Source: an uncultured Flavobacteriales bacterium (GTDB taxonomy: Bacteria; Bacteroidota; Bacteroidia; Flavobacteriales_G; Salibacteraceae). Taken from it: a stretch of DNA of 64,000 bases. The notes below the pieces were generated by a model that was not told the origin of the DNA, did no database searches, and saw only the letters and a program-made list of their open reading frames with translations. Shown here in pieces: positions 14,199 through 24,183 of this stretch (positions are counted from its first letter, which is position 1; the number at the start of each line of letters is the position of its first letter). The stretch lies in contig CAJXZP010000008.1 in assembly GCA_913062955.1 (NCBI GenBank), forward strand, positions 1 to 64,000, read 5' to 3'. The position numbers were made by a program, and so were the translations under genes.

Positions 14199-16196
14199 AT
14201 GTTTAAATTGAGACTACATCATATCACTATCGTTCTGGTAACGGTATTCATTTGTATTCTTTCATTTGCTGTTCAGGCAAGTGAACCGGCAGACCGTATT
14301 CCATTTCCTAAACAGAAAGAAACGGCAATGGATCGTCTAATTTGGTTACGTGAACAAATGGAAACGAGCCATATTGATTCCAACATCGCTGTAGAGCAGT
14401 ATTTCCAAGTAATAAAATTACGTGCGATTAAGGATGAAAACCCTGGATTACTGGCTAATGCGAGTTATAACTTAGGGATATTGTACTTCAATTCAGAGAA
14501 CTACATCAAAGCCATCCCTCCTCTACAAAGCGCTCTAGACAATGTACCCAACCTCCAATACTCGGATAGTTTATTACTTTACAATCATATTACCATTGCA
14601 TTTAAGGAGATTCGCGCATTTAATTCGGCCGTACAATATGTAAGTACGCTCGAATATTTAATGAACAAAAACCCTCAAGAATATGATCGAATTTCCAATA
14701 ACGTCATGTCATTGGATGGCTTATACTATAATTTAGGGATGTATTCTGATGCCATTAGAGTTTTTAGACAAAAAAAATCCAAGGGGATCAATATGGTTCG
14801 CTCTGACCCCTACAAATATGCCGTTGACGCCTTTGATTTGGGCCGATATTTTAGCGCAAACAAACAACCAGATAGTGCCTTACATTATTACAATATATCC
14901 CGAGGAATTGTAGAAAGTTCAAATTTCGAAAACGGAGAATATTTCCTCGGTTTAATCAAAGGGAATTCGGCTGAAACCTTAATCCAACAAAAAAAATATG
15001 AGCAAGCAATTCCCCTTTTAAAAGAAAACTATGTTACTAGTTTAAGAGAAAAGGATCTATCAAACTCGGCTAAGACATTGAATTTACTAGCCCATTGCGA
15101 ACAAAAAACGGGAGATATTGATAATGCCTTACGTCATTTACAAGCCGTTAAAAACCATACCAATAGGCTGAAAGATGGCGATATTATGTATACCAACACC
15201 CTGTATTTAAGTCAAACATTTGGAAAGTTACAACAATACGATTCGGCCTACTGGTATTCCAAAAGGTACATCCAACTCACCGACTCCATTCAGGCAACCC
15301 GAAACATTGAAAAATCGGCTCAGCTTTCTGTATCGGCTGAGCTTCAACATAAGGAGCAAATCATGCAAAAAGCCTTGGTCCAAATGCATAAGGAAAAACA
15401 AAGTTCTGACAAAAACAAACAGATTTTGAATTGGATCATTGCCGCAGCAGTATTATTGGCTATTTCCTTTGTCACCGTTTTAATTCTTCTCCGGAAACAA
15501 AGTGCTTCAAAAAACAGGCTAAAAAAGCTATTAGTTAGTCATGAGCAAAAAACATCTGAAGTTGAGAAATCACTCCATGAAAAGGAATACCTACTTAAAG
15601 AAATTCACCATCGTGTAAAAAATAATTTACAAATTGTTTCTGGAATTCTACAACTTCAAGCCCTACATAGCAAAAACAAGGAAATTAAGCATATTATGAA
15701 CGAAAGCCAGAATAGAATCCAATCTATGGCTCTTATTCATCAAATGTTGTATCAAAATGAAGATTTTAGAAACATTGCCTTTAAACAATATGTTCACAAA
15801 TTAAATCTTCAAATAATGAGTTCATTGATGGTTGATTCCAATAGAATCAAAATCAATATTATTGTAAAAGATGTATATTTAGATGTGGAAACTGCTATAC
15901 CTTTAGGCCTAATTGTAAATGAACTTTTAACAAATGCAGTAAAATATGCCTATCCTGAGGATAGCCAGGGTCAAATAGATGTCTGGCTGAAAAGTGATTC
16001 TGACAATAATTACGAATTAATTGTATCGGATGATGGTGTTGGTTTATCCGAAGGTTTTAATATTACAAGTACGAACACACTTGGGCTACAATTGGTGAAT
16101 ATGCTATCAAAACAGCTTAAAAGTGAACTTAAATACAGAAATAATTCAGGAGCGGAATTCTCCATAAAGTTTAAAATTAAAACGAATGAGTTATAA
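14199..16196 (+). CDS. TPR sensor histidine kinase (HisKA_2 type)
   Basis: 665 residues. A signal/anchor segment (residues ~8-28) is followed by a periplasmic TPR-like helical region (~80-370, repeats such as NLGILYFNSENYIKAIPPLQ) and a transmembrane helix at 411-431. A short coiled coil then leads to the HisKA_2 phosphoacceptor domain (KEIHHRVKNNLQIVSGILQ, His470/471), and the HATPase_c domain has an N-box NELLTNAVKYAYP (574-586), G1 box DDGVGL (611-616) and G2 GLQLV. All catalytic motifs are intact. TPR-periplasmic kinases paired with LytTR regulators are common in Bacteroidota. The stop overlaps the regulator start by 11 bases, so the two are co-translated. It heads the exopolysaccharide-like operon, and the signal sensed is unknown. 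Confidence 0.9.
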   Translation: MFKLRLHHITIVLVTVFICILSFAVQASEPADRIPFPKQKETAMDRLIWLREQMETSHIDSNIAVEQYFQVIKLRAIKDENPGLLANASYNLGILYFNSENYIKAIPPLQSALDNVPNLQYSDSLLLYNHITIAFKEIRAFNSAVQYVSTLEYLMNKNPQEYDRISNNVMSLDGLYYNLGMYSDAIRVFRQKKSKGINMVRSDPYKYAVDAFDLGRYFSANKQPDSALHYYNISRGIVESSNFENGEYFLGLIKGNSAETLIQQKKYEQAIPLLKENYVTSLREKDLSNSAKTLNLLAHCEQKTGDIDNALRHLQAVKNHTNRLKDGDIMYTNTLYLSQTFGKLQQYDSAYWYSKRYIQLTDSIQATRNIEKSAQLSVSAELQHKEQIMQKALVQMHKEKQSSDKNKQILNWIIAAAVLLAISFVTVLILLRKQSASKNRLKKLLVSHEQKTSEVEKSLHEKEYLLKEIHHRVKNNLQIVSGILQLQALHSKNKEIKHIMNESQNRIQSMALIHQMLYQNEDFRNIAFKQYVHKLNLQIMSSLMVDSNRIKINIIVKDVYLDVETAIPLGLIVNELLTNAVKYAYPEDSQGQIDVWLKSDSDNNYELIVSDDGVGLSEGFNITSTNTLGLQLVNMLSKQLKSELKYRNNSGAEFSIKFKIKTNEL

Positions 16197-16965
16197 GGTC
16201 AAAATATATATTGTGGAGGATGAGTACATTACTCAGGCCGTTCTTAAAAACAATGTAGAAGAAATTGGATATACCGTGGTGGGTATGTCGGACACTGCAG
16301 AAAAAGCATGGGAAGATCTCCAAGGTATGGATGTTGATTTAGCCTTGCTAGACATAAATCTTGCAGGCGAAAAAGATGGCATTTGGTTAGCAAAAAAAAT
16401 ACGGGAGAACATCGGCATTCCTTTTATTTTTCTTACTGCCTATGGAGATAAATCGACTATAAATACGGCTGTTAAAACACAACCAAATGGATACCTTTTG
16501 AAACCATTTAATGAAGTAGATATTTATACGGCTATCGAGGTAGCCTTAAATAATTTCAATCAAACTCAAGCCAAACCAAAGCTACAAAGCAAAGAGTTAG
16601 ACGGTGGTACCAAACCACTTCCAACGAGCTCAACAGATGTCTCCGTTGGGAATGATCAAACCATTTATCTAAAAGTGGATAAAATTTTTTACAAGATTAA
16701 ACTATCCGAAATATTCTACGTAAAATCAGATAGTAATTACGTGGAGGTATTCCTGGAAAGTAAAAAACATTTGGTTCGAAGTACATTAAAGAATTTCTCG
16801 GAACTACTACCGGAACATATGTTTTTACAAGTACACCGTTCATATATTGTAAATGTAAAAAAAATTGAAAGCTTGGGTGATGGAGAAGTTCGATTAAATA
16901 GTGACAAAAGCGTACCTTTATCTGCTAACTATAAAGAGGACGTGATCCATAAAGTGGTGCATTAA
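16186..16965 (+). CDS. LytTR-family response regulator
   Basis: 259 residues. The receiver domain has the acidic pair E11-D12, phosphoacceptor Asp56 (LALLDIN), T84 and K106 (LLKPF), all conserved. A low-complexity linker (~125-160) leads to a LytTR DNA-binding domain (~165-258: IFYVKSDSNYVEVF ... MFLQVHRSYIVNVKKIE ... VPLSANYKED). It is the cognate partner of the overlapping kinase. The next gene, the TolC-like fusion, starts 10 bases downstream, so the regulator is co-transcribed with its presumed output. The likely role is transcriptional control of this operon and perhaps other surface-related genes, but no LytTR binding site was identified. Confidence 0.93.
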   Translation: MSYKVKIYIVEDEYITQAVLKNNVEEIGYTVVGMSDTAEKAWEDLQGMDVDLALLDINLAGEKDGIWLAKKIRENIGIPFIFLTAYGDKSTINTAVKTQPNGYLLKPFNEVDIYTAIEVALNNFNQTQAKPKLQSKELDGGTKPLPTSSTDVSVGNDQTIYLKVDKIFYKIKLSEIFYVKSDSNYVEVFLESKKHLVRSTLKNFSELLPEHMFLQVHRSYIVNVKKIESLGDGEVRLNSDKSVPLSANYKEDVIHKVVH

Positions 16966-16975
16966 AACAATAATC

Positions 16976-19045
16976 ATGCGGCGTATTCTATTGATATTTT
17001 GTGGTATTTTAAGTTTTGCAATTTCCTTGAATGCGCAAAATTCGGAGGTTTCCAAATACATCCAACAAATGTATATTATTTGGGACTCTACCTATATTAA
17101 CTATTCTGTATCTCATAATGCAGGTGATTCTATTGATGCCATCAATTTATTAAAAAAGACACCTATTCAAGTCCAAGATTCGCTCAGCATCCTTACCCCA
17201 GAACTACTAGAGCAACAAGTACTCTTGCAGGAGGCAAAAACTATTGACGGAGACATGGGTTTAAATATGCGAGCTGATTATGCTTACAACTTAGATCCAG
17301 GGATTGGATTTGAAGACAACTTATTCTACACTCAAAAATTTAGAGTCGGTCTTGAAATGAATTTGTTAAGTGGTGGTTTATTTGCCAATAATACGGCTTC
17401 GAGAATAAAATACAATGAACTAGAAATACGCAGGTTACAATCACCTGAACAGGCAAAAAAACAGGATCGGTATTTAAAATGGCATAATATCATTTACCAA
17501 TTTAACTTAAAAAAAATCGAAGTTTTAAGAGCAAGAGAAAGGCTTGCCCAACATAGGGTTCAAATGGCTACCCAGCTTAATTTCCTAAAACATGTAACTC
17601 AAAAGGATTTAATACATGCTATTTCTAGTCATGCAGAAATTCAAAGCATGTTAAACATATACGAAAGTTATAATTATCAACTTGCTTCGGAATTAAAAGT
17701 CAACAGCCAAGTAGCGACCCAATTCCCTCCCATTGACATTAACTATACCTATTCTTACAAATTATTAGGGACAGAAGAACCAGATTCCATTTCGTCTTTG
17801 ATGATTGAGAATATTGAATTGAGGGATAAAACCATTAACGAATTCAAATTAAAACCTTTTGTGGCTTATAATTTTTACGATTTGGTAAGTGATAATCCCT
17901 CGAATCGAAATTATTTTTCCGTTGGGTTGACGGTGGGAGCTCCATTAAATTTCAACTCAAAAAATAGAGCAAATTTACGAGAAGCAAGATCGCAATTAGC
18001 CCTGCTCCCCACCAGTAGTAGACCGGAAATCCAACAAGACATTTTAACCCAGTTTTACGAGTTTAGATACAAACTAAAACAATACTCTAACCTGCACTAC
18101 AAAAGACAAAGCTACACGGAGTTATTACGACAAGAACAGGTAAAGCATGATATTTCCCCCCTTACTTTTAATCCAATCAGAGCCTTAAAATTAATGGACA
18201 ATGTGATGCAGATTGACATTGAAATGATTGATACCAAACAACAGATGTATCTAAAAGCTCTGAACATTTACACCGACTTGCCATTTAGTAATGCCGAAAA
18301 ACTGATCCATCCGGTTAATATGAAAAGGCAAGACCGACACTCTGGACATTTTAACAGCATTTATGTGTGGAGTAATACCATATTGAAACACGAACCTGCA
18401 GTATTAGCACACTATATCAATTTAAATCCATTTCATAGAGCCACTATTAGTTACAATTCAAATCCCGATGCCCAAATCAGAACAAATAAGTTTATTCATC
18501 ACTTACATCTAGAAGGTATTGATATCGAATTAATGATTGGGAAAAATTCATTAATTGAAGGCGGATTTACCCAACACCTGCAAAAGTTGGATACCCAATT
18601 TGACCTATCCAAAATCACCTCCATTAGTTTGGATGTAGAACCACATACACGCAAAGATTGGCATGAAAACAAAGCAAGCTACATGAAAAAGTATCACGCT
18701 TTATTAGCTGAGGCTCGTGCGTACTGTAACAATAAAGGGCTTCAATTAAGCGTGAGTATCCCAACTCATTACCCCGAAGAAGATATTTTTAAAATTTACG
18801 AAACTGTTGACCGAGTATACTTTATGTGTTACGAAAATGTAAAAACAGAATTTATTATTCGCAAAACCAATAAATATCCCATCGAAAAAACGTATATCGC
18901 ATTACGCACCAATGACTTTAACAATAGATTAGAGATGGAGAATAAATTTAAAGAGCTAAACCTGTCAACAAAGGTGGCTGGCTATTTAGTACATGATCTA
19001 GGATCATTGCTGGAATTTGATCATAATTCTTTAAACAACCAATAA
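16976..19045 (+). CDS. TolC-like outer-membrane channel fused to a TIM-barrel-like domain
   Basis: 689 residues with a signal peptide ending at SLNAQ. Residues ~45-435 have the two-fold TolC/OEP architecture: a barrel-strand pair (YTQKFRVGLEMNLLSGGLF; FSVGLTVGAPLNF), each followed by long helical stretches. Residues ~445-685 are a different domain with the alternating strand-helix pattern of a TIM barrel. It carries ISLDVEPH (D553-E555-H557) after a strand and VYFMCYENV (~613-621) after a later strand, like the acid-bearing strand ends of glycoside hydrolase-like proteins. I infer an export channel with a built-in polysaccharide-acting or binding domain. The TolC half is fairly sure and the glycosidase-like reading is an inference from fold pattern only. 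Confidence 0.7.
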   Translation: MRRILLIFCGILSFAISLNAQNSEVSKYIQQMYIIWDSTYINYSVSHNAGDSIDAINLLKKTPIQVQDSLSILTPELLEQQVLLQEAKTIDGDMGLNMRADYAYNLDPGIGFEDNLFYTQKFRVGLEMNLLSGGLFANNTASRIKYNELEIRRLQSPEQAKKQDRYLKWHNIIYQFNLKKIEVLRARERLAQHRVQMATQLNFLKHVTQKDLIHAISSHAEIQSMLNIYESYNYQLASELKVNSQVATQFPPIDINYTYSYKLLGTEEPDSISSLMIENIELRDKTINEFKLKPFVAYNFYDLVSDNPSNRNYFSVGLTVGAPLNFNSKNRANLREARSQLALLPTSSRPEIQQDILTQFYEFRYKLKQYSNLHYKRQSYTELLRQEQVKHDISPLTFNPIRALKLMDNVMQIDIEMIDTKQQMYLKALNIYTDLPFSNAEKLIHPVNMKRQDRHSGHFNSIYVWSNTILKHEPAVLAHYINLNPFHRATISYNSNPDAQIRTNKFIHHLHLEGIDIELMIGKNSLIEGGFTQHLQKLDTQFDLSKITSISLDVEPHTRKDWHENKASYMKKYHALLAEARAYCNNKGLQLSVSIPTHYPEEDIFKIYETVDRVYFMCYENVKTEFIIRKTNKYPIEKTYIALRTNDFNNRLEMENKFKELNLSTKVAGYLVHDLGSLLEFDHNSLNNQ

Positions 19046-19067: not shown

Positions 19068-20156
19068 GTGAAATCATTAAACTTTAATAGAAAAGCCTCC
19101 ATGTTGAGAAACATGGAAGAGGAAAAAGTATCGAGTAGAACCAAAAACTGGGACAAAATTGTCTATTATGTTGTTCTTGGTTTGATCAGTTTTTTCATTT
19201 TCCGCTATTTTATTAATCAAGTATTCTATGTGCATGCCCAAGGACAAATTCTCTTTAATAGCATTAAAATTCGAGTACCAGATGATATTACCATTCATTA
19301 CTTTAAAGTAAAGGAGGGTGATACAGTGTTATATGGAGATACTCTTTTTGCGTATACAGCCGCAAGAGACGAACAAAGCCGGGGAGCATTTGCTTTTCAA
19401 ATCAAGGATGACAATAACGACAACTCCACTTCGTGGCAACAACGAGAAGTATACCAACTAAATAAAAACATCGTGTTAAATCGCTTACGTATTGGCGAAA
19501 ACATTAATCTAATTGCTTGGTACCAGTCAGAAATTCAAAAACTTCGAAATCAAGTTATTCTTGAAATAAGTTCTAAAAACAAACTAGAATCATACGAAAG
19601 TCAACTTGAAAAACTCACCATTGAAAACAAAAAATACACGAGTGAGATTTATGTTTTTAGGAAGATGATTACTGAATTGGGAGGACAGTCAGAAGAATCC
19701 ATAGAAGACGATTTTGAACATGCACCCACTCCCTATTCTGGTGGTGGGGCTGGCTACATGTCCATGAAAAGACTGTATGTAAGTCCGATGAGCGGGGTAA
19801 TTACTCGAATCTATAAAAGGCCCAATGAAGTTTCTTTAAAATCGGAAGAGATCATGAATGTGCATCAACAAGAAAGCATTTATATCAAAGCTTTTTTCAA
19901 TCCGGAAGACCTTGAGGCTATTGAGGTAGGTAGCGAAGTCTCCCTTATTTTCCCGGATGGCACCACTAGTCACGGACTCATCAGGCGTACGTATACGGCC
20001 ACGTATAGGTTACCCACTGAATTTCAAAAAAAGTACGAGTCAACTACCCGATCCATCGCAGTTGATATTTACCCTTCGGATGATGAACAATTATCCGAAT
20101 GGAAGAAATTTTATAAAATTCCAGTTCAAATCCGAAAAAATCGTTTCCAATGGTAG
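19068..20156 (+). CDS. HlyD-family periplasmic adaptor (membrane fusion protein)
   Basis: 362 residues from a GTG start. An in-frame ATG at 19101 (MLRNMEEEKV) is a possible shorter start. There is a cytoplasmic N-terminus and one transmembrane helix at ~31-52. A split barrel-sandwich hybrid follows (IRVPDDITIHYFKVKEGDTVLYGDTLF; later LYVSPMSGVITRIYKRPNEVSLKSEEI), with a helical hairpin between (~140-205) and a beta-barrel (SIYIKAFFNPEDLEAIEVGSEVSLIFPDG). This is the HlyD/Alg44-type adaptor layout that links an inner-membrane machine to a TolC channel. It lies between the TolC-like gene and the glycosyltransferase, so it may guide a nascent polysaccharide through the periplasm. Confidence 0.85.
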   Translation: MKSLNFNRKASMLRNMEEEKVSSRTKNWDKIVYYVVLGLISFFIFRYFINQVFYVHAQGQILFNSIKIRVPDDITIHYFKVKEGDTVLYGDTLFAYTAARDEQSRGAFAFQIKDDNNDNSTSWQQREVYQLNKNIVLNRLRIGENINLIAWYQSEIQKLRNQVILEISSKNKLESYESQLEKLTIENKKYTSEIYVFRKMITELGGQSEESIEDDFEHAPTPYSGGGAGYMSMKRLYVSPMSGVITRIYKRPNEVSLKSEEIMNVHQQESIYIKAFFNPEDLEAIEVGSEVSLIFPDGTTSHGLIRRTYTATYRLPTEFQKKYESTTRSIAVDIYPSDDEQLSEWKKFYKIPVQIRKNRFQW

Positions 20157-21583
20157 AAGATTTTGAAAAAGGTCAAATTATTGTCGACAAGAATGTGGTA
20201 ACCTACCACGATTTGAAATACTTTATTGTAGAGTTAAATGACAAGTTTCGACCAGATAACCTAATCAAATATGACGTCCTATTAATTGATATTAAAGAAG
20301 ATGAACTGGTTACTTATGTCGTTAAACAGATAAGAACTCATATAAATCCGAGGATTTATATGATGCCCATATTTCTACTCTCTACCACAGATTTTCATGA
20401 AGTGGTTACCACCCATTTAACGGATGGTATTTTACCTTCCATTAACCATTTAGATTCTATTGAACCAAGAGCATTGGACATTAAGGCCAATATTGAACGA
20501 ATCAATCATCCTAAAGTATTAAGTTTTGAGTCCCAAATGATCAACAGAACTTTGAACTTAATGTATACCAGGAATAAAAAGGTCTTAAATCCTATACCCT
20601 ATTTCCATTCTGGAATTGGGTATTATTATCCCGAGCTATCCATCAATTTCGATCATAGGGATGAAAGTGGCGCATTAAAAATTTTGGAGATAGCCGAACA
20701 AGAAGGACTTTTTCAATCCGAGTTTCATGAACGTGTCTATTGCTGTAATAATTGCAATGGTAGTTACTTAAACTATCGGGAAGTTTGTCCAAAATGCAAT
20801 TCTTCAGATTCAATATCTCAAGATTTAGTTCACCATTTCCCCTGTGCCTATGTTGGGCCTATTGAAGATTTCAAAAACAATATTGATGACCAATTAGACT
20901 GTCCGAAGTGTAATAAAACGCTTCGCCATATTGGAGTAGATTATGACAAACCATCGGTATTGTATACTTGTAACAGTTGTCATCACCGCTTCCAAGACTA
21001 TTATACCAAAGCTAAATGTATCACTTGTGGTACCGAAAATGATGTAGAACATTTGGTTCCTTTTTCCATCAAGAAATACATTATGACCAAAAAAGGGGAA
21101 AATGTAGCGATTAATGGATATATCAATATCGAAAAACAATTAGAGTCATTGGAAGGTACGGTAACTATGGCCATTTTCAAAGTACTGTTGACTTACGAAA
21201 TTCAGCGACTACATACGCAAGGCTATCAATCCAATATTGGTTACATCCATGTACAACATGCCGCTGCTGTAGCCGGTGTTTTAGGGCTTGAAAAACAAAA
21301 AGCCTTAATGAATGACTTAGTTCAAATGCTGAAAAGTAATTTAAACCCTTCGGATTTTGTAAGTTTTTACAACTCATCAACAATCGTTTTTTCATTTGTA
21401 AATACCAAACACAAGGAAGCCAAAGAGGCCATCGAAGAAATGAAAGACCTATCAGAAAGGTTGTTACGTAAATCATTTGAAAAGGTTCATATTGAAGTCC
21501 GTACAGATGTTATCGCATTAAAACTAGGAGGTGAGGTAGAATCTGTAGTCAATTCTATGGTATTTCCGTTAACAAAAATGTAA
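20150..21583 (+). CDS. Receiver-like / TackOD1 zinc-ribbon / degenerate GGDEF protein
   Basis: 477 residues, soluble. Residues ~35-120 look like a receiver-like domain without a clear phosphorylation pocket. Residues ~165-320 hold a Cys-rich module with CxxC or CC pairs at 199/202, 213/216, 251/254, 274/277 and 290/293, plus LVHHFPCAYVGPIEDF and LRHIGVDYDKPS. This matches the TackOD1 domain as I know it. Residues ~335-440 follow the GGDEF fold (start IQRLHTQGYQSNIGYIHV; NPSDFVSFYNSSTIVFSF), but the GGDEF signature is replaced by FYNSS, so cyclase activity is not expected. Binding of c-di-GMP or another nucleotide is also not evident. It overlaps the adaptor gene by 7 bases and is followed 6 bases later by the glycosyltransferase, which it probably regulates. 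Confidence 0.75.
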   Translation: MVEDFEKGQIIVDKNVVTYHDLKYFIVELNDKFRPDNLIKYDVLLIDIKEDELVTYVVKQIRTHINPRIYMMPIFLLSTTDFHEVVTTHLTDGILPSINHLDSIEPRALDIKANIERINHPKVLSFESQMINRTLNLMYTRNKKVLNPIPYFHSGIGYYYPELSINFDHRDESGALKILEIAEQEGLFQSEFHERVYCCNNCNGSYLNYREVCPKCNSSDSISQDLVHHFPCAYVGPIEDFKNNIDDQLDCPKCNKTLRHIGVDYDKPSVLYTCNSCHHRFQDYYTKAKCITCGTENDVEHLVPFSIKKYIMTKKGENVAINGYINIEKQLESLEGTVTMAIFKVLLTYEIQRLHTQGYQSNIGYIHVQHAAAVAGVLGLEKQKALMNDLVQMLKSNLNPSDFVSFYNSSTIVFSFVNTKHKEAKEAIEEMKDLSERLLRKSFEKVHIEVRTDVIALKLGGEVESVVNSMVFPLTKM

Positions 21584-21589
21584 ATTCAA

Positions 21590-22909
21590 ATGGATGTTTT
21601 CGGAGCGGAAATACAAGAGTTTTTTCATTACCTAAGATCCGTAGGTTTTAGTAAATTACTTCGTGTTTTTTGGTTTTTCTTCTTTTTTGAGTTTTTTCGT
21701 TATGTTATTGTCGATTTAATTTCGCTCGTTTTCATTATGTGGGACCGAAAACGAAATAGAAACAACTACGAAGATGCCAAACGAAGAATGTGGCTAGAAC
21801 TCCCTTTGGTTTCTATTGTTGTTCCCGGTAAAAACGAAGGAAAACACATCTATAAATTAACCACTTCATTAAAAGAACAAACCTACAAAAACTTCGAGTT
21901 GATAATTGTAGATGATGGTTCAGATGATGATACCGAAATCATTTGTAAAAGCTTAAAAAAAAATGGGCTAATAGACTATTTCATACGAAACGAAGTTCGT
22001 GGAGGAAAGGCTTCAGGCGCCAACACGGCCCTTCGAATAGCCAGAGGAAAATACGTGGTCCACTTAGATGCTGATTGTTCCTATGACTTTGATGCCATTG
22101 AAAACATTATCATACCCTTTTATGAAAGCCCCGATGTAGGTGCCGTAGGAGGCAACGTAATGGTTCGGAATTATAAAGAATCCCTAGCCACCACCCTACA
22201 ATCATTTGAATATACAGATGCCATAAGCATTGGCAGAATGGTAGCTAGCTACTTGGGGATTTACCGTGTGGTTTCGGGTGCTTTTGGTGCCTTTAGAATG
22301 GATATATTACAACGGGTTCAGGGCTGGGATATAGGCCCCGGGTTAGATGGTGACATTACTGTCAAATTTAGAAAACTCGGTTACAAAATAAAGTTTGAAG
22401 ACCGAGCTGTTTGTCAAACCAATGTTCCCAATAGTTTTAGAAAATTAACCAAGCAACGTTTGCGCTGGGATAAATCTCTGATCCGATTTAGACTTAGAAA
22501 ACACTCCGATGTATTTTTCCCTTCTCAAAATTTTAGCTTAACAAATTTCATTTCCTTTATAGAAAACATCACCTACACACTTGTACTGAATATAAAATGG
22601 TACATCTATGCGAGTGATATGATCTATAATTTTGCTTCCGTACTCCCGTTTATTATTGTCATGAACTTTTTTCTTTACACCACCACAAATATGTTTAAGC
22701 TTTTGGTTTTCAATATATTTAGAGAACGGAAAAACACCCCCTTTTCCTACTTCGTTTTGTATGTGCCATTGATGGTTTTCTACCATGGATACTACCTACG
22801 TATCGTAAGAACGATTGCTTATATCAAAGAATTCTTCTTTAAACAATCGTATAAAGACCCATGGAACCCTGAGAAAACTTCCATAAAAGCACTGGAAATT
22901 GGAATTTAA
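21590..22909 (+). CDS. Processive family 2 glycosyltransferase, membrane-bound
   Basis: 439 residues. A hydrophobic segment at ~22-50 precedes a GT-A domain with PLVSIVVPGKNEG, DDGSDDDT (108-115), HLDADC (DxD at 160-162), DGDIT (253-257, acceptor-side acidic residues) and QRLRW (289-293, the QxxRW motif of processive synthases). Hydrophobic segments follow at ~310-400. This is the pattern of inner-membrane polysaccharide synthases such as hyaluronan, PNAG (PgaC), alginate (Alg8) and cellulose synthases. The sugar polymerised cannot be predicted. It is the last gene of the operon, and its 3' end overlaps the convergent SGNH gene by 4 bases. Confidence 0.9.
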   Translation: MDVFGAEIQEFFHYLRSVGFSKLLRVFWFFFFFEFFRYVIVDLISLVFIMWDRKRNRNNYEDAKRRMWLELPLVSIVVPGKNEGKHIYKLTTSLKEQTYKNFELIIVDDGSDDDTEIICKSLKKNGLIDYFIRNEVRGGKASGANTALRIARGKYVVHLDADCSYDFDAIENIIIPFYESPDVGAVGGNVMVRNYKESLATTLQSFEYTDAISIGRMVASYLGIYRVVSGAFGAFRMDILQRVQGWDIGPGLDGDITVKFRKLGYKIKFEDRAVCQTNVPNSFRKLTKQRLRWDKSLIRFRLRKHSDVFFPSQNFSLTNFISFIENITYTLVLNIKWYIYASDMIYNFASVLPFIIVMNFFLYTTTNMFKLLVFNIFRERKNTPFSYFVLYVPLMVFYHGYYLRIVRTIAYIKEFFFKQSYKDPWNPEKTSIKALEIGI

Positions 22910-24183
22910 CGTTTCACTGCCAAAGACTGTACGGACACAATTTCGCCTCCATCATATAGTTTCAAATAATAAACTCCAATGGGTAAATCTGAAGTAGAAA
23001 TCAACACTACTTTTTGAGAATGACCAACCACTTTGGTTCTCATTAAATGCCCCGTAGTATTGTACAGATACACGACCCTATTTGATGGGGTATTCAAACC
23101 TGTTATTTCCACATTTACATAGGAAGATGATGGATTTGGATACACCGATAAATGCGCATTACTTACAAAATCAGAAACTCCTAAGGTAATGGATACCGTA
23201 TCCAAATAAGTATCCAGCCTACCACATTTAGAGGCCTGTAGTGTTACATAATACTCTCCTGGTGTACCATATATATGTTGTGGACTCTCTATTAAGCTAG
23301 AATCACCATCTCCAAAAAACCATACATAATCATCTGCTTGTGTCGAGTTGTTGGTAAAATCAAACGTACTCTGATTTTGGTTAAAAGAGAAATTCGCAAT
23401 GGGATCATATTCCCCAATATTCCATTGCAACATATTGTCAAACACCACTGATTTTGCTGCCATTCTAATGGTGGAGGCCTCCGAAGCAGTCAAACCGCCA
23501 TCAAATGTAATCAGGGTAGGATCTTTTCTAAATATGGTGACATAAAAAGCACAGGCAGCCGCGTAAGATCCAGCGAGAGAAGGATGTGATTCATCAGGTG
23601 AATACAGTTCTATCAACGGATAATTATTTCGAATATCACGCCAGACCGCCCCTACCGGAGAGACCAAAGCATCATTATCTTCCGCCATTTCCTGATAGCG
23701 TTCGTTCAATAAACTATCCATACCCTCATAGGTACACACCGGTGGCCAAAAAGCACAATTAGATGCATCCCCATTTTTCCGTCCCCAGGTCATAAAAAAA
23801 ATGGGCATCGAACAATCGGATCCCGATCGAATAGAATCACATAATGTTTTAGCATACGGATAAACATCCGATTGCACTTGGCCAATTGGCCAAGATGGTT
23901 CTTGACTTTGGGCTTGCAACACCACAAAATCCCAATCTTGGGCTGCAATTTTTGTGAGCGTTTGATTATTGGTCACATGATTTAAAAATCGCGTCCCACC
24001 CGGAGTTGATTGATCCGTAACCATGCTATCCCCTGCGGTTAATGCCATGTCTTTCAGCAATTCAGGCAAATCATTATAGTAGGTATAACTATTCCCAATA
24101 AACAACACCTTCTTTTCTTGACCATGGCCCATAATGGCGACAACACTTAATCCTAGTAGGATTCCAACAATCTTCTTTCTCAT
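22906..24183 (-). CDS. Secreted SGNH-hydrolase-like protein with PKD and T9SS domains
   Basis: 425 residues. The signal peptide ends near GHGQ. Residues ~24-255 resemble an SGNH/GDSL-type esterase: FIGNSYTYYNDLP has Ser after GN (block I, GNS in place of GDS), TPGGT lies near residue 61, and SPDESHPSLAGSYAAA is the DxxH block near 195-210. A PKD domain follows (~260-335: WFFGDGDSSLIESPQHIYGTPGEY), then a T9SS sorting domain (LSVYPNPSSSYVNVEI ... LPIGVYYLKLYDGGE). It probably acts outside the cell on acyl or acetyl esters, for example decorated polysaccharides. It faces the exopolysaccharide operon tail-to-tail, but whether the two are functionally linked is not known. Confidence 0.82.
   Translation of the reverse strand: MRKKIVGILLGLSVVAIMGHGQEKKVLFIGNSYTYYNDLPELLKDMALTAGDSMVTDQSTPGGTRFLNHVTNNQTLTKIAAQDWDFVVLQAQSQEPSWPIGQVQSDVYPYAKTLCDSIRSGSDCSMPIFFMTWGRKNGDASNCAFWPPVCTYEGMDSLLNERYQEMAEDNDALVSPVGAVWRDIRNNYPLIELYSPDESHPSLAGSYAAACAFYVTIFRKDPTLITFDGGLTASEASTIRMAAKSVVFDNMLQWNIGEYDPIANFSFNQNQSTFDFTNNSTQADDYVWFFGDGDSSLIESPQHIYGTPGEYYVTLQASKCGRLDTYLDTVSITLGVSDFVSNAHLSVYPNPSSSYVNVEITGLNTPSNRVVYLYNTTGHLMRTKVVGHSQKVVLISTSDLPIGVYYLKLYDGGEIVSVQSLAVKR

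Follow-up and report, generated by a model that had tools for sequence, protein, structure and literature searches.

Here we describe a 477-residue protein from an uncultured Flavobacteriales bacterium that combines an N-terminal domain, a TackOD1 zinc-ribbon domain and a degenerate GGDEF-like domain. Because it is inherited together with a predicted polysaccharide synthase/exporter, it is probably a soluble control subunit of the GT2 synthase encoded directly downstream, on which its zinc core would dock while the flanking domains act as inputs or scaffold. A broader and more tentative possibility is that TackOD1 is a dedicated docking/control subunit of a GT2 class widespread in Bacteroidota, Proteobacteria and phage-like elements, in which the GGDEF-like tail would be a former c-di-GMP receptor, repurposed where the messenger was lost.

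Gene array and domain architecture

The window, the whole 64,000-nt stretch of DNA that was analysed, contains an array of six genes in the following order:

14199..16196, + strand: membrane histidine kinase with TPR, HisKA_2 (Pfam, 6e-26) and HATPase_c domains, at the head of the array
16186..16965, + strand: response regulator with REC and LytTR DNA-binding domains (Pfam, 4e-20 and 3e-19)
16976..19045, + strand: outer-membrane factor, its N-terminal part resembling TolC/OEP and joined to a GH18-like domain with an LDVEPHT motif, assigned via homologues
19068..20156, + strand: HlyD-type periplasmic adaptor with one N-terminal transmembrane segment (30-50; Pfam HlyD_3, 4e-5)
20150..21583, + strand: TackOD1 protein, 477 residues in a single clean frame
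21590..22909, + strand: predicted GT2 polysaccharide synthase, PgaC-like (TIGR03937 at 4.8e-50, below that model's equivalog cut-off; matches to PDB synthases)

The histidine kinase gene overlaps the regulator gene by 11 nt, and the TackOD1 gene starts 7 nt inside the end of the HlyD gene and stops 6 nt before the GT2 gene. Apart from the HlyD overlap, a 99-residue minus-strand frame is the only other overlapping open reading frame listed. The outer-membrane factor has no direct Pfam match; among 18 aligned members of its family, 12 match OEP (best 2e-11) and 2 match Glyco_hydro_18. Both a periplasmic adaptor (HlyD_3) and an outer-membrane channel (OEP, via homologues) are thus represented. 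Profile and PDB synthase matches place the GT2 nearest to PgaC-type synthases, and its catalytic motifs are intact (DDG, DAD, GLDGD and QRLRW), providing the DDG, DxD and QxxRW of the processive-type enzymes of synthase-dependent polysaccharide secretion. No PilZ domain was found in it. Its gene end is overlapped by 4 nt by a convergent gene (22906-24183, minus strand) for a protein with PKD and Por_Secre_tail (secretion sorting) domains. At another locus (L040), a UDP-glucose/GDP-mannose dehydrogenase gene lies just upstream of the TackOD1 gene, which hints at uronic acid in the product there.

The TackOD1 protein was divided as follows:

20150..20494, + strand: N-terminal domain (about residues 1-115), uncharacterised
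20534..21079, + strand: TackOD1 zinc-ribbon domain (residues 129-310; Pfam PF18551, E 4.3e-48), with invariant ligands
21173..21478, + strand: degenerate GGDEF-like domain (residues 342-443; weak Pfam GGDEF match plus profile alignment)
21344..21355, + strand: I-site position (residues 399-402), NPSD instead of RxxD
21371..21385, + strand: A-site position (residues 408-412), NSSTI instead of GGDEF, by alignment to DgcR

Hydropathy revealed no transmembrane segment in any of the 477 residues, which indicates a soluble protein. A scan of genome contigs found one relative only. Pairwise dN/dS (finite values) of 0.02-0.14 points to purifying selection on all three parts, these values being a rough guide because dS is saturated. 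A full-length AlphaFold model from three sequences had low confidence (pLDDT 33), was unusable and gave no docking model.

A sequence-only reading of the window had named this frame as a TackOD1 protein with a GGDEF-like C terminus, and both domains were recovered by profile. The profile search that it had proposed for TackOD1 returned PF18551 at 163.8 bits, against a curated cut-off of 32. The Cys pairs (C199/C202, C213/C216, C251/C254, C274/C277 and C290/C293) and the core blocks (LVHHF and LRHIGVDYDKPS) that it had pointed out are all there. Beside the pairs lies a His-Cys motif, H228xxxC232, and the window protein therefore has the 11 conserved cysteines of the family, in five CxxC pairs plus the His-Cys motif. 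Fourteen positions, comprising zinc ligands and a DYD-P core, are invariant in 28 of 28 homologues (C199, C202, H228, C232, C251, P252, C254, L258, D264, Y265, D266, P268, C290 and C293; the out-of-frame rows L065 and L066 were left out of the ligand alignment). From these ligand residues the domain is predicted to bind zinc. C213, C216 and C277 are lost together in one clade (L031 and L033-L037), with C274 lost too in four of the six and the other ligands kept. This suggests that C213/C216/C274/C277 may form one zinc site, a pairing that is suggestive only, because the co-loss comes from a single clade. A search of solved structures gave no significant match to the TackOD1 domain, and an AlphaFold model of the core from six sequences also had low confidence (pLDDT 61) and gave no docking model.

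The N-terminal domain is a third part of the protein, absent from the sequence-only description. Its roughly 115 residues have no Pfam match. In another family of the phylum (f27), the domain also occurs as a separate gene of 106-119 residues upstream of REC–TackOD1–GGDEF-like genes, and at several loci a true REC stands in for it within the TackOD1 protein. Stand-alone genes of 109-119 residues are found at L039:8447-8776, L043:8617-8946, L044:6789-7121, L045:8646-9005 and L048:8753-9112, and a 106-residue homologue occupies the same position at L047. The one stand-alone gene that was scanned, that of L039, has no Pfam match. The separate and joined forms are a fission/fusion pair. The candidate identity of a degenerate REC was rejected: an alignment of the N-domain only (A8) had no significant REC match, with a best E value of 0.65 against PDB response regulators and an hhalign probability of 0.2 of 100 against true RECs. 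A mixed alignment (A3), which included the true RECs of L039, L043-L045, L047 and L048, did match PDB response regulators, and those matches probably came from the true REC rows.

Linkage of TackOD1 with the GT2 synthase

At every one of 20 Bacteroidota loci, which come from 19 genomes besides that of the window, a GT2 gene lies directly downstream of TackOD1. HlyD is close by at each of them, and the outer-membrane gene was found at 17; the L035 locus is truncated by its contig end. A GT2 gene also follows TackOD1 at ten alpha- and gammaproteobacterial plasmid loci, identified by annotation (L052-L056 and L058-L060) or by profile search (L050 and L063); the TackOD1 frame of L060 is broken into two pieces. 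On a mobilizable 29-kb plasmid of Aeromonas caviae (pKAM345_3; L051/L062) that has a TackOD1 gene, TolC and HlyD genes lie across the record's origin.

The association extends beyond adjacency. Within the window's order, TackOD1 and the GT2 orthologue (E<=1e-40) occur in exactly the same 9 of 42 genomes. The TackOD1 and GT2 trees have 18 of 24 splits in common, where 2000 shuffles of the labels never gave more than 3, and their distances correlate at 0.89 (0.83 within Bacteroidota). Family f27 falls into two separate clades in both trees, and one genome (G244) has a copy of each. The common splits, the two clades and the double occurrence in G244 argue that the pair travels as a unit, not only with the species. 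The partnership with the adjacent GT2 that had been proposed from sequence is thereby supported. Neighbours may, however, co-evolve without contact, and TackOD1 is not synthase-specific: a haloarchaeal locus (L057) has it without a GT2, and in thaumarchaea it occurs in type IV pilus loci (PMC5847659). Both points weigh against a control subunit.

Shrinkage toward the zinc core is seen on three contigs from IMG/VR classed as viral (L070, L071 and L072; 30, 112 and 47 kb). These keep HlyD–TackOD1–GT2, the TackOD1 protein being 245, 137 and 233 residues long, respectively, and the 137-residue form has little beyond the zinc core; the protein of L049 is without the GGDEF-like domain. TackOD1 is the common element beside GT2, the N-domain and the GGDEF-like domain being dispensable as judged from these sequences. 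The cassette on the three contigs is possibly a phage-encoded polysaccharide exporter. After it comes one more protein, probably secreted, and next to it are genes for radical-SAM and metallophosphoesterase proteins that match PHROGs; an RNA ligase gene (phrog_24030, 2e-61) lies near it on L071. Another viral-classed contig (L061:2408-12787) has TackOD1–GT2–HlyD and a further protein, a GGDEF-like tail reading RPVD...AGDEF, and an MxxxRRLxxF-like N-terminal start common to several neighbouring frames, perhaps a shared tag.

These minimal versions, devoid of input domains, and the fact that GT2 and TackOD1 are never apart in the window's order would also fit an obligate structural or assembly subunit that helps folding or bridges GT2 and HlyD and regulates nothing. 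We consider this less likely, since most cellular members have an N-domain or signalling-type domains (REC, GGDEF-like) and two-component genes recur beside TackOD1 genes. Across loci, two-component genes or REC domains recurrently adjoin TackOD1 proteins or are fused to them.

The GGDEF-like domain and c-di-GMP

The tail of the window protein, taken alone, matches Pfam GGDEF at E 0.0055, below the cut-off. A tail profile built only from the 20 Bacteroidota members (A9) matches DgcR (6zxm) at 3.2e-10; for other GGDEF structures the E values run from 1e-5 to 2e-4 (DosC, 2e-4). Profile–profile comparison aligns the Bacteroidota tails with the gammaproteobacterial tails, which exceed the GGDEF cut-off by themselves, at 4.8e-8. 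By these comparisons the tail is GGDEF-derived, in agreement with the earlier assignment. In the DgcR alignment, RFGGEEF corresponds to F406-Y-N-S-S-T-I412 and GGEEF to N408-S-S-T-I412. The FYNSS signature singled out from the sequence was therefore in the correct place, with N408-S-S-T-I412 as the motif position proper. H367 and Q369 stand where a cyclase has the metal aspartates of the DxD stretch, and the I-site reads N399-P-S-D402 instead of RxxD, with loss of the arginine. The window protein is no cyclase, because the A-site motif and both metal aspartates, together with the I-site arginine, are lost. Of the sequence-only view of a regulator and not a cyclase, the missing cyclase residues and the GT2 partnership both stand; regulation itself we put forward as probable.

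Polysaccharide synthases of this type are normally controlled by c-di-GMP. No GGDEF domain exceeds the cut-off in any of the 20 TackOD1-bearing Bacteroidota genomes (G008, G232 and G350 being single-contig assemblies), EAL is absent in 19 of the 20, and no PilZ was found in the window genome. That genome contains a 108-residue EAL fragment (L068:1447-1773, E 2.1e-33) truncated by the end of contig C4, and because the fragment sits at a contig edge, a GGDEF–EAL protein may exist there. Among 396 genomes sampled from the phylum, 202 have a GGDEF domain that exceeds the cut-off, and the missing GGDEF of the TackOD1 genomes is no independent evidence, because their lineages look GGDEF-poor anyway. 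The idea that lack of GGDEF sets TackOD1 genomes apart was rejected; the absence follows lineage.

A c-di-GMP receptor in which nucleotide on the GGDEF-like domain turns the synthase on would accord with the GGDEF homology, with the RDTD (RxxD) kept at the I-site in gammaproteobacterial relatives (L050-L052), with the EAL fragment, and with PelD and BcsE, degenerate-GGDEF receptors of exopolysaccharide machines (PMC8461298). Such a receptor is quite improbable in the window lineage: all but two of the 20 Bacteroidota members have lost RxxD, the arginine being N399 in the window protein, and GGDEF and PilZ are missing as described. The window protein likely does not bind c-di-GMP; its gammaproteobacterial relatives, judged by their I-sites, probably do. 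The two Bacteroidota members that still read RxxD (L046 and L048), like the EAL fragment, tell against the control-subunit proposal.

Proposed mechanism and known systems

A nucleic-acid-binding or transcription factor acting on the operon through its zinc ribbons is barely plausible: it would fit archaeal REC–wHTH–TackOD1 proteins (PMC5847659) and weak sequence and fold matches to zinc ribbons such as those in RNA polymerase, Trf and reverse gyrase, but none of these matches is significant (Foldseek with the core model gave insignificant matches only, mostly to zinc-ribbon proteins), no HTH domain was found in bacterial TackOD1 members, a LytTR regulator is already encoded in the array, and the gene is tied to GT2, not to varied targets.

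We favour a control subunit. The GT2, the HlyD adaptor and the TolC-like channel with its attached GH18-like domain would form an envelope-spanning machine for synthesis and export. We infer that the zinc-ribbon core docks on the GT2 and is the part that the synthase needs, and that the N-domain and GGDEF-like domain, as replaceable modules for input or scaffolding, set the activity of the docked complex. In gammaproteobacteria, a GGDEF-like domain with RxxD would probably still read c-di-GMP, as PelD does. In the window lineage, where RxxD is lost and the messenger probably absent, control would have been handed over to protein contacts and to two-component inputs, here the kinase and its LytTR regulator, which probably act on expression.

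The nearest functional models are PelD and BcsE, and the nearest GT2–HlyD pair is BgsA/BgsB. PelD likewise has a degenerate GGDEF domain and belongs to an exopolysaccharide (Pel) synthesis operon, but it has transmembrane helices and a GAF domain, and its RxxD site binds c-di-GMP (PMC8461298). The window protein is soluble, shows neither such helices nor GAF by hydropathy and Pfam, has no RxxD and contains TackOD1. BcsE regulates the GT2 synthase of cellulose synthesis and, like the window protein, is soluble and has a degenerate GGDEF domain, but it binds c-di-GMP (PMC8461298), and TackOD1 is not described for it. Alg8/Alg44 (alginate) and BgsA/BgsB (mixed-linkage glucan) also pair a GT2 synthase with a HlyD/membrane-fusion partner, but in these systems c-di-GMP exerts control, via PilZ or via the C terminus of BgsA (PMC8461298, PMC9495663), with no TackOD1 described. 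Staphylococcal GdpS is reported to be the sole GGDEF-type protein of its genome and to affect biofilm seemingly without c-di-GMP (PMC9714401), but it reportedly acts on ica operon expression and has no known tie to a synthase gene. Archaeal TackOD1 (PF18551), defined as an output domain of obscure function (PMC5847659), is the same domain as judged from the Pfam score, the five CxxC pairs and the His-Cys motif; the window protein differs in its tie to a GT2 cassette, its N-domain without a REC match and its GGDEF-like tail.

The literature searched contained no description of a bacterial TackOD1 protein or a TackOD1–GT2 system. The cassette points to a class of exporters for envelope polysaccharides that seems not to have been described before, and a version of it is present on phage-like contigs. 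If docking and control are borne out, the archaeal 'output domain' would gain its first function, one made directly testable by its tie to a single enzyme, and the window lineage would exemplify how a c-di-GMP-controlled exopolysaccharide machine is rewired where the messenger is missing.
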